In this document: positions 25,206-27,811 of the stretch, one piece after another
Layout of the letters: every line of letters starts with the position of its first letter
Numbering within the stretch: the first letter of the stretch is position 1
Assembly (NCBI GenBank): GCA_027488755.1
Contig: JAIYAZ010000103.1
Location: forward strand, 1 to 64,000
Length of the DNA: 64,000 nt
From: Verrucomicrobiaceae bacterium
GTDB taxonomy: Bacteria > Verrucomicrobiota > Verrucomicrobiia > Chthoniobacterales > JAATET01
Direction of reading: 5' to 3'
The notes under the pieces: generated by a model
The model's database searches: none
What the model was told of the DNA's origin: nothing
What the model saw: the letters and a program-made list of their open reading frames with translations, nothing else
Translations under genes and position numbers: made by a program

Positions 25206-26006
25206 TCACGCGGCGGCTTCCAGGGCCCGACCCAGCGCGTTGAGGTCGTGCTCCCGCGCGGCGTCGTAGATCGCGTCGTCCAGCGGGGAGAAGGCCGCGA
25301 GCGGAGCGCGGGGGACGCCCGCGTGGTGGCGGAGGTGGGGGTCGAGGAATTCGTGGATGGCCGCCCGGGCGGCCGAATCCGGCGGGGGAACGTCGAGAAA
25401 CCCGGCGAGCCGGGCGGAGGTTTCCGCTGATTCATTCAGGAGCTGCTCGTAGGTGAGCACCATGCGGGGCGCATCCCGGGTGGTGCGTTCCGCGGCCTGG
25501 ACGTGTTCCCGCCACAAGTCCAGCGCCGCCTCGCGGGGAAGGTCATCCCGGTGGGCCAGCGAGGCGGCGACTTCCTGGGGACGCCGCACCATGAGAACGA
25601 AGCGCGGCGTCCGGGGCGTTTCGCGTTGCAGGAGCTCCCGCCAGACCGGCATCAGGCGGCACAAACGCGGGTCCTTGAGGCCGAAGAGCGGATGGGCGGG
25701 GAAGCGGAGGCCGTATTCGGCCGTCAACGCGGGGAGATCGACGCGGGTCCGCCAGTCCTCGGGCAGGGCAAAGGGGGTTTTCCAGCGCGCGCCAAAAACC
25801 CGGCGGAGCAGGTGGTCGTTCAGCCGGACGGCCGCGGTCATCTCGAAGTGGCCTTTCGGGTTGCTCGGCGAGGCTCCGATGAGATCGCTCCCAAACTCCA
25901 CGCCGAGTTTCTGGAGCACGCCGGCCAGGGCGGACGTTCCGCTGCGATGCATGCCGAGAATGACCACGGGCTGGCGGGCGTTGTCCCTCGGGGTTATTGA
26001 ATCCAT
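25206..26006 (-). CDS. Sulfotransferase-family protein
   Basis: A 266-residue cytoplasmic protein with the PAPS-binding P-loop of sulfotransferases at its start (VVILGMHRSGTSALAGVLQK, residues 14-33), then NPKGHFEM, FGLKDPRLCRLMPVW (a typical KDPR motif) and RFVLMVRRPQEVAASL, where the RxP-containing strand contacts the 3'-phosphate. It most likely transfers sulfate to a carbohydrate or other surface polymer, but some members have unknown roles. The ATG at 26006 was preferred because the upstream 50 codons look non-coding. It is convergent with the 24453 gene. Confidence 0.8.
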   Translation of the reverse strand: MDSITPRDNARQPVVILGMHRSGTSALAGVLQKLGVEFGSDLIGASPSNPKGHFEMTAAVRLNDHLLRRVFGARWKTPFALPEDWRTRVDLPALTAEYGLRFPAHPLFGLKDPRLCRLMPVWRELLQRETPRTPRFVLMVRRPQEVAASLAHRDDLPREAALDLWREHVQAAERTTRDAPRMVLTYEQLLNESAETSARLAGFLDVPPPDSAARAAIHEFLDPHLRHHAGVPRAPLAAFSPLDDAIYDAAREHDLNALGRALEAAA

Positions 26007-26142: not shown

Positions 26143-26159
26143 ATCATACATGACATTTA
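26143..26159. repeat. Left copy of short repeat pair
   Basis: Contains atcataca (26143-26150), whose inverse tgtatgat occurs at 26986-26993, and acatgacattta (26148-26159), repeated directly at 26973-26984. Confidence 0.45.
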
Positions 26160-26349
26160 CGGAACTTTAGGGGGTGAAGGACCGGCCCGCGCCGGCCTTG
26201 GAGGCGCATCATCCGCCCCCGGCAAGCGGTCTGGGAGCGGTCGATCCGCCGGGCGGGGGGAAAGAGGCCCGCCGACCCTCCAAAACAGCCGCCGCCACCC
26301 TCAACCCCCCTGCGAATTTGACCCCACCACGGAGCCGAACGGACAAGCT

Positions 26350-27162
26350 TTGCCCGGCGATCCGCCCGCCGCGATCGACTGGCAACCGTGGAAGGGCAGC
26401 ATCGTGCCTGCCTTGCGGGCTCGTCTGGCCGCGTATGGGGCCGGACGAGGCCTGTGGGCCATTTTGAGCCTCACGACGCGGGGGAGGGCATCTCTGGTGC
26501 TGCGGATCGAGGAATCTGGCCAGCTCTTGACCGTCATGGCGGAGTTCAACCGGGATCGGGTGCCGGATCTCGGCAAAGCGAAGGGTTGGGCGCAAGGTCT
26601 GGCGGCGTCCTGGCTGGCGGAAAACGGCCACGAAGCGCAGGCGGCGGCGCTGCTCAGCCCGGACGAACTCCATTTTTGGGTCACGAACCTACGGAAAATG
26701 CGTAGGGCGGCCGAACCTGAACCGGCCCGGAAAGAGACCCGGAAAATGCGGAGGGTTGCCATGCGTGCGAAACTTTGGGCCATGCACCGCCAAACCGACC
26801 CCGACGCGGACCGGGCGGCGGACCCCCGGAGGGGGGACGTGGCCCCGGCGGCGGCGGGAGTCCGCGCAGCGGACGAAGGGCCGCAAGGCCGTCGGCTTGT
26901 CTATCCCACTATATCTCACCACGGATCACTGTGCGGAGTGCACGGCACGCCTGCCATTTCCATGCCGATTAGACATGACATTTATTGTATGATATTATCG
27001 GTTATTGGTTGGCAGCGAGGAACTTTCGGGGTTGTGAATAAGATTGGGAAAAGCTCGAGGGGTTCACGAACTTTCTGCTGCCATACGGAACTTATCCCCA
27101 AAGCCATCGGGAAACTTCCGCGGCAGGGCCCGCATTTCGCGGAACGATCCGTGGGAGCTTAA
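26350..27162 (+). pseudogene. Orphan open frame, probably a gene fragment
   Basis: A frame open from 26101 to 27162. Residues encoded from about 26370 to 26790 have coding-like composition and look like a folded domain: IDWQPWKGSIVPALRARLAA, GLWAILSLTTRGRASLVLRI, LTVMAEFNRDRVPDLGKAKG, ASWLAENGHEAQAAALLSPD. The last 120 codons look like non-coding sequence read through. There is no good start codon; TTG at 26350 and GTG at 26404 are in frame. No family recognised. The short duplicated patch ccggaaaatgcg(t/g)agg near 26693 and 26740 lies inside. It may be a truncated gene carried by the repeat-flanked segment. Confidence 0.3.
26973..26993. repeat. Right copy of short repeat pair
   Basis: Direct repeat acatgacattta (26973-26984) and inverted tgtatgat (26986-26993), matching the left copy at 26143-26159; an AT-rich tract follows. 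Confidence 0.45.
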
Positions 27163-27193: not shown

Positions 27194-27811
27194 TTACCGC
27201 GGAACGCGGTCGTCGGACGGCTCCGCCGCGAGTTCGCGGGTCAGCGCGTCGGCGAGCGCCCGTTGAGCCTGCTTGCAATCCTTCACGAGGCGGAGGAAGG
27301 CCCGCCGGCGCGCCTTGTCCCGCGCCAGCATGGCAAGCAGGCGTGGTCCGGCCAAAAGCGGTTGGCGGGCCAGATCCTCAAGTAAATCGGGCGGCACCCC
27401 GAGGTCGTCGTCGGCCCGGTCGCTGATGACGCGCAGCGCCATAGCGGGCACTCCGGCGGCGGCGCAGACTTCCAGGATGGCGGCGGTTTCCATGTCGACG
27501 ACGTCGGCGCGGGTTTCGGCCCGCCACGCGGCCTTGGCGGCAGCGGTGGCGAGGACCTCGGGGGCTTGGGAAAAGCGGTGCGTGTGGTCCCGCACGATGG
27601 CGCCTATTTCGAGGTCGGGATCGAGCGCGCCGGCAAAACCGGACACGATTACCTGGCTGGGCGGCTCCGCTTCGGCGCAGAGCGCGAGTTCCGCGGCCAC
27701 CCGCGCGCGGTCGGCGCCCACCCCCGTGTGAACGATGCGGACGCTTCGGCTCGCCGGGGTTTTGCGAAAAGCCGCGCTTTCGAACGGGACGGCGAAAGTG
27801 ACGAGAATCAC
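27194..27811 (-). CDS. Nucleoside phosphorylase/nucleosidase-like protein
   Basis: A 205-residue member of the PNP/UDP phosphorylase superfamily (MTA/SAH nucleosidase and hopanoid-associated phosphorylase group). Visible are VHTGVGADRA and VIVSGFAGALDPDLEIGAIV for phosphate/ribose binding, and the key VDMETAAILEVC segment with the ribose-contacting Met-Glu, then LRVISDRADDD, where the Asp is the usual proton donor. It is somewhat shorter than MtnN (about 230). The start is GTG, overlapping the upstream stop as GTGA. Substrate cannot be fixed from sequence; the family cleaves N-glycosidic bonds of nucleosides. Confidence 0.8.
   Translation of the reverse strand: MILVTFAVPFESAAFRKTPASRSVRIVHTGVGADRARVAAELALCAEAEPPSQVIVSGFAGALDPDLEIGAIVRDHTHRFSQAPEVLATAAAKAAWRAETRADVVDMETAAILEVCAAAGVPAMALRVISDRADDDLGVPPDLLEDLARQPLLAGPRLLAMLARDKARRRAFLRLVKDCKQAQRALADALTRELAAEPSDDRVPR

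Follow-up and report, generated by a model that had tools for sequence, protein, structure and literature searches.

The stretch of DNA analysed here, called the window, comprises 64,000 nucleotides of a Verrucomicrobiaceae bacterium of the order Chthoniobacterales (GenBank assembly GCA_027488755.1, contig JAIYAZ010000103.1, positions 1 to 64,000). Between a sulfotransferase gene and a PNP/UDP phosphorylase gene it carries a short segment that lies against the chromosomal dif site and was probably integrated there by the host recombinases XerC and XerD. A first-pass annotation had described a 12-bp direct repeat and an 8-bp inverted repeat around this segment, and both are present. The direct repeat, ACATGACATTTA, lies at 26148-26159 and 26973-26984, and the inverted repeat consists of ATCATACA at 26143-26150 and TGTATGAT at 26986-26993. 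No further copy of ACATGACATTTA occurs on either strand of the 3.48-Mb assembly, in which the backward-read control gave zero matches and the segment itself has no second copy. All the results below are comparative, and the draft contigs are short.

The right edge of the segment is the chromosomal dif site (Table 1). The left edge is a half-site that repeats dif from its XerC arm through the fourth centre base and then diverges; 15 of the 17 bases are equal in the left and right copies and the outer bases differ. The insert is thus flanked by a half-site on the left and a whole site on the right, both oriented the same way. When the flanks are joined without the insert they read as a dif-like site, and the dyad of the two dif arms, separated by the insert, accounts for the 8-bp inverted repeat. 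The division of the site into 11-6-11, the naming of the XerC and XerD arms and the C/D orientation are by analogy with known dif sites. The edges of the segment are AT-rich, as had been annotated, because dif is AT-rich; the interior is not GC-rich as had been supposed but ordinary (GC 0.659 versus 0.663 and 0.657 in the 6-kb flanks).

Table 1. Coordinates of the insert, its junctions and neighbours in the window, with half-sites and Pfam matches from dif inserts of other genomes
Feature	Position	Strand	Remarks
Inserted cassette	26156..26980	+	825 bp, repeat to repeat
Left junction (attL-like)	26145..26161	+	XerC arm CATACATGACA (26145-26155), centre TTTA shared with dif, then CG
dif site = right junction	26970..26998	+	XerC arm TAGACATGACA, centre TTTATT, XerD arm GTATGATATTA, plus T
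Cargo frame	26311..26715	+	Related to G020 cassette protein; candidate start TTG 26350
PNP/UDP phosphorylase gene	27194..27811	-	XerD-side neighbour; also adjoins dif in G002
Sulfotransferase gene	25206..26006	-	XerC-side neighbour; longest open reading frame (ORF) would start at 26156, inside left junction
Half-sites in G137 (L145)	-7531, -6731, -5874, -4949, -3921 relative to dif		Five in a row, units of 0.8-1.0 kb
Pfam matches in inserts of G137			N_methyl, RibD_C, MST/DinB
Pfam match in insert of G185			GNAT, 676-bp unit
Pfam match in insert of G168			Trypsin_2
Pfam match in insert of G029			DUF4145

The dif site is present as a single copy in its own genome. A 20-nt dif pattern (1 mismatch) gives one match each in 33 of 213 genomes of the order, and a 27-nt pattern (up to 3 mismatches) is found in 90 of them, with one copy in 86 and two in 4. 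The reversed control of the 27-nt pattern gave 0 matches in the 213 genomes; the pattern itself has no match in 123, one same-genus genome included. The consensus of the XerC side over 95 loci is ATTTTATATGACATATA. As parts of a site conserved across the order, the edge repeats are genuine and not due to chance. In three other members of the Verrucomicrobia, dif sites have been predicted by Kono et al. (in the relevant part of PMC3025954). GC skew in the 109-kb contig that holds the window changes sign at the site, from +0.079 on the left to -0.097 on the right. In G041, where dif lies in a 3.76-Mb contig, skew is positive in all 10 sampled segments on the left and negative in 6 of 10 on the right, the positive ones lying at about +20, +40, +300 and +400 kb, so the shift is rough. 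Of the seven tyrosine-recombinase matches in the host genome, two lie in Xer-sized ORFs (300 and 297 aa); a single FtsK gamma domain was also found (E 6e-25). It thus encodes FtsK with a gamma domain and putative XerC and XerD, named by family and length. Two dif-like sites each were seen in G155, G162 and G178, at least one per genome being near a contig end; these pairs are possibly insert states that were not resolved.

Comparison with relatives shows both filled and empty loci. According to the first-pass annotation, a segment found at the same place in all relatives, with no other copies of the repeats, would make the repeats chance. Two of the three same-genus genomes gave the opposite outcome, since G002 and G003 have dif without the insert. 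G002 carries LepA, a membrane protein, the phosphorylase and dif in the order of the window, with the window's glycosidase farther out on the other side, beyond different genes, and the 20 kb analysed around its dif contain no half-site. In G003 the glycosidase and dif are both present, their relation being inverted with respect to the window, and no half-site was found in the 14 kb around dif. The site is therefore empty in these two genomes. The third, G001, is uninformative: dif was not found there, including near its phosphorylase gene, which has a different neighbour.

A filled locus was found in another family of the same order. G020 has a homologous 1134-bp insert at its dif, among other genes, and the related frame is flanked by TATACATGACATACACG and TATACATGACATACATTGTATGAAGTTAT, the same edge type as in the window. 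The search for more copies of the edge repeats that had been suggested thus gave no third copy in the own genome and one homologous insert elsewhere. The window's neighbour genes do not adjoin the G020 site, where LepA lies about 7 kb off. The motif CATGCC stands directly before the right-hand arm in both cassettes and is absent from the left flanks. The two sides of dif also differ in seven genomes of one genus. Their XerD sides align in long blocks with 70-86% identity; their XerC sides share only transposase-like DNA, plus one flank in G137, G140 and G141. This flank begins about 9.0, 2.1 and 5.4 kb from dif, respectively, and G140 and G141 share more of it. Half-sites lie between flank and dif in G137 and G140, and none was found in G141.

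The polarity is seen in many genomes of the order. The regions searched for half-sites were those around 95 dif loci from 92 genomes, up to 10 kb on each side and often less at contig ends; the set omits a second, weak dif match in G017. With the 12-mer of each genome itself (1 mismatch), the XerC side gave 17 matches in the dif orientation and 6 in the opposite one and the XerD side gave 0 and 0, the spans searched being 0.57 and 0.70 Mb, respectively. Five of the six opposite-strand matches overlap same-strand matches because part of the XerC arm is palindromic. A 17-nt profile, which was built from the same 95 dif sites and so favours half-sites resembling them, gave at scores above 10 29 matches in the dif orientation and 3 in the opposite one on the XerC side, and 0 and 1 on the XerD side. 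Above 16 the corresponding numbers are 21, 1, 0 and 0, and the 21 lie in 15 of the 95 loci (L059 among them). Possible chance matches among the 29 are L165 (10.6), L112 (11.2), L146 -7846 (12.8), L161 -4292 (13.2) and L107 (13.9), and L059, with a contig end 7 bp away, is also doubtful. The centre bases were compared in 25 half-sites (L059, L107, L112 and L165 omitted). The first four equal those of the genome's own dif in 23, and they are TATA in 19. All four half-sites in hosts with a centre other than TATA match their own dif: TTTA in the window, and TACA in G020 and, twice, in G005. A motif, CAACAC[CT], recurs some 5 bp ahead of the 17-nt arm stretch in half-sites and dif of L102, L113, L146, L149, L156 and L169; it is perhaps an accessory site or a cassette end.

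The cargo frame of the window is open from TTG 26101 to the stop at 27162, running through dif, and at E values up to 10 nothing in Pfam or PHROGs matches it, in agreement with the earlier description of a frame of no known family with a poor start. In a search of 57 genomes (the own genome and relatives) its protein matches that of G020 (E 8e-15, 41% identity over 80 aa); matches in six other genomes at E 0.001-0.03 are not believed. Among 384 genomes of the class, convincing relatives of the cargo were found in G000 and G020 only, two further matches (E 0.001-0.003) having in-frame stops, and the cargo alignment run against genome_contigs found one locus, which is G020. Weak matches of the G020 proteins to UreE_N (E 0.009) and to a tail terminator (E 0.034) were not believed either, and the second gene of the G020 cassette has no convincing counterpart in the window. 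Over the 80 codons aligned between window and G020, 39 first, 31 second and 48 third positions differ and 21 of the 68 changed codons are synonymous. The frame also scores best of the six (BLOSUM sum 159, the next being 87). These substitutions suggest that the frame coded for protein in the past, not that it is expressed today, and the cargo may be passenger DNA that is unused or decayed. An AlphaFold2 model from a two-row alignment had a mean pLDDT of 57, too poor for a fold search.

Inserts at other dif sites of the order have varied contents. The row of half-sites in G137 has one main reading frame in several of its units, and of ten frames from seven genomes that were tested six pass the Pfam cut-off (Table 1). 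The 8.1-kb XerC-side insert of G105 (L140) encodes a Zot and Secretin protein and a G2P-type Rep and is an inovirus prophage. Genes for G2P-type Rep were also found in G168 (E 3e-8) and in G138 (E 1e-4, below the Pfam cut-off); a frame in G152 resembling Rep had no match. In L110 (G005), a pair of related units in tandem (70% identity over 510 bp) stands between two half-sites and dif, and the two half-sites and dif share 25 bp. Related IS1-family transposase DNA lies about 0.1-0.8 kb from dif on the same strand in L146, L169, L156, L145 and L149, and related transposase DNA is also on the XerC side in G037 (reversed) and G029. The element may be a dif-seeking insertion sequence (IS).

We propose that the segment is a minimal element integrated by the host XerC and XerD, in the manner of CTX and VGJ phages and other integrative mobile elements exploiting Xer recombination (IMEX). 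We give this reading, which is built from sequence comparison, a probability of about 0.8. The evidence for it consists of the conservation of the site, the polarity, the match of centre bases, the filled and empty loci, the G020 cargo, the candidate recombinase genes and the inovirus at dif. The earlier suggestion of a small inserted cassette, or of a mobile-element relic that lacks its transposase, is supported in outline. Since its edges are a dif and a half-dif, XerC and XerD of the host are the likely enzymes, which is a likely reason why a transposase is missing.

In the proposed mechanism, a small circle or single strand would pair with the host dif. It would bear an XerC arm followed by a few dif-matching centre bases, its second arm being degenerate. 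XerC would exchange strands beside its arm, and replication or repair would close the second strand of the joint. This would damage the site on the left but leave dif whole on the right, so that dimer resolution could continue. Later integrations would again land beside dif and build a row on its XerC side. In CTX and VGJ phages, XerC makes the first exchange and homology beside the XerC site is decisive, and the XerD-proximal part of the centre need not match (described in part of PMC4246890). The window junctions have the CTX/VGJ layout. In dif-like sites of phages the XerD arm is often degenerate (from a section of PMC3025954). We infer the enzyme, the circular form and the order of strand exchange. 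The degeneration of the left arm hints at poor excision, but this is a guess, since VGJ phage integration is reversible despite a similar junction layout, that of CTX being irreversible (according to part of PMC4246890).

Of known systems, IMEX (CTX phage, VGJ phage, TLC satellite, LME-1 and GGI) are among the closest. These elements, too, lie at dif; one of their ends is a complete dif and the other an altered site, and their centre bases beside the XerC site match the host (as presented in parts of PMC4246890 and PMC9765430). The window insert likewise has a complete dif at one end and homology beside one Xer arm, and dif is empty in relatives. It differs from IMEX in being 0.8 kb long, in having no phage or replication gene and in belonging to another phylum, and it is known from its sequence alone.

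Several results, along with the reversibility of VGJ phage, weigh against integration by XerC and XerD. The weakest link is the second arm, no mimic of which is recognizable in the left junction of the window (p 0.59). In the 23 of 29 junctions tested for it (L165, L112, L146 -7846, L161 -4292, L107 and L059 omitted), p is below 0.05 in 4; combined, p is 3e-5, owing mostly to two of the junctions. No half-site scoring above 16 was found in 80 of the 95 loci, many of which end early at contig ends, and two of the 25 half-sites (L146 -7846 and L161 -4292) do not match the centre of their own dif. The insert has host-like GC and no replication or phage gene, its frame is without a normal start, and a circular form of it was not seen. 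Two exact patterns, one of the commoner form of dif and one of the most frequent junction (neither being the variant in the window), matched 0 viral contigs, and the cargo alignment found 0 relatives in viral contigs. With the G020 protein as query, plasmids gave no match, and the best match among phages, at E 0.8, was one phage under two accessions. Finally, transposition also acts near dif, as is shown by IS1-family transposase DNA in five larger inserts (in the one tested, Pfam E 7e-9).

This last observation favours a transposon that targets dif, or a non-autonomous derivative of one, with the repeat as target-site duplication. IS1202-family elements of the ISAjo2 group also lie, in a single orientation, next to the XerC arm of dif, and they are 1.5 kb long, with terminal inverted repeats, a transposase and 5-bp duplications, none of which was seen in the window insert; other members of the IS1202 group make duplications of more than 15 bp or none (these points being taken from part of PMC10132070). 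The repeat in the window covers the XerC arm, stops inside the dif centre and has copies that differ in their outer bases. Additionally, the insert has no terminal inverted repeats beyond the 8-bp dif dyad and no transposase match. A transposon is therefore improbable. Faulty repair or duplication at the terminus could also leave a half-dif, the segment being ordinary host DNA between dif remnants. Consistent with this, the GC of the insert equals that of its flanks, and the inversion of dif relative to the glycosidase gene in G003 indicates that the region rearranges. It does not explain the strict polarity across 95 loci, the related cargo at dif in another family (G020) or the prophage and Rep genes at the same position elsewhere, and we consider it quite improbable. 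Chance repeats around an old resident gene are very improbable: a two-copy 12-bp repeat can in principle arise randomly and the cargo frame looks formerly coding, but the right copy lies in a conserved site, the repeat is found nowhere else in the genome and the empty sites of two same-genus genomes contradict it.

Integration by XerC and XerD invites comparison with other systems of short units. The dif (pdif) modules and chromosomal dif module islands of Acinetobacter are likewise one- or few-gene units bounded by Xer sites, and they also form linear multi-module arrays (as set out in parts of PMC12907356 and PMC10132070). The Acinetobacter units are enclosed by whole C/D and D/C sites, whereas the half-sites here run the same way, have no clear second arm and stand beside the main dif. 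In dif modules the Xer sites alternate in orientation, both orientations being mentioned in a figure legend. Two whole, opposed Xer sites of this kind do not bound the window insert. The row in G137 resembles integron gene cassettes, in that short units with one main frame are lined up at one site; unlike integron cassettes, the site here is dif.

More tentatively, and with somewhat less than an even chance, we suggest that in the Chthoniobacterales an integron-like capture takes place in which XerC and XerD, not an integron integrase, insert short cassettes serially on the XerC side of dif. This would build ordered rows at the terminus that are hard to excise, perhaps spread by inovirus or rolling-circle helpers using the same site. 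The suggestion draws on the five half-sites of G137 and on the GNAT, RibD, DinB-type and pseudopilin-type cargo, and under it the window would be the simplest, one-cassette form. If this were true, ordered-row gene capture would be possible without an integron integrase and the terminus would be a readable record of past integrations. The literature searched, a shallow survey, held no paper on such dif inserts in this phylum. Besides supplying a dif sequence for many genomes of the order, the analysis suggests that the main dif is a hot spot on one side of which small inserts collect.

Of the two genes that border the locus, the sulfotransferase gene has no match in the 14-20 kb around the dif of G003 and G002. 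Elsewhere in the window, a tRNA-Ser (TGA) at 1595-1682 is the sole Rfam match at the gathering threshold.
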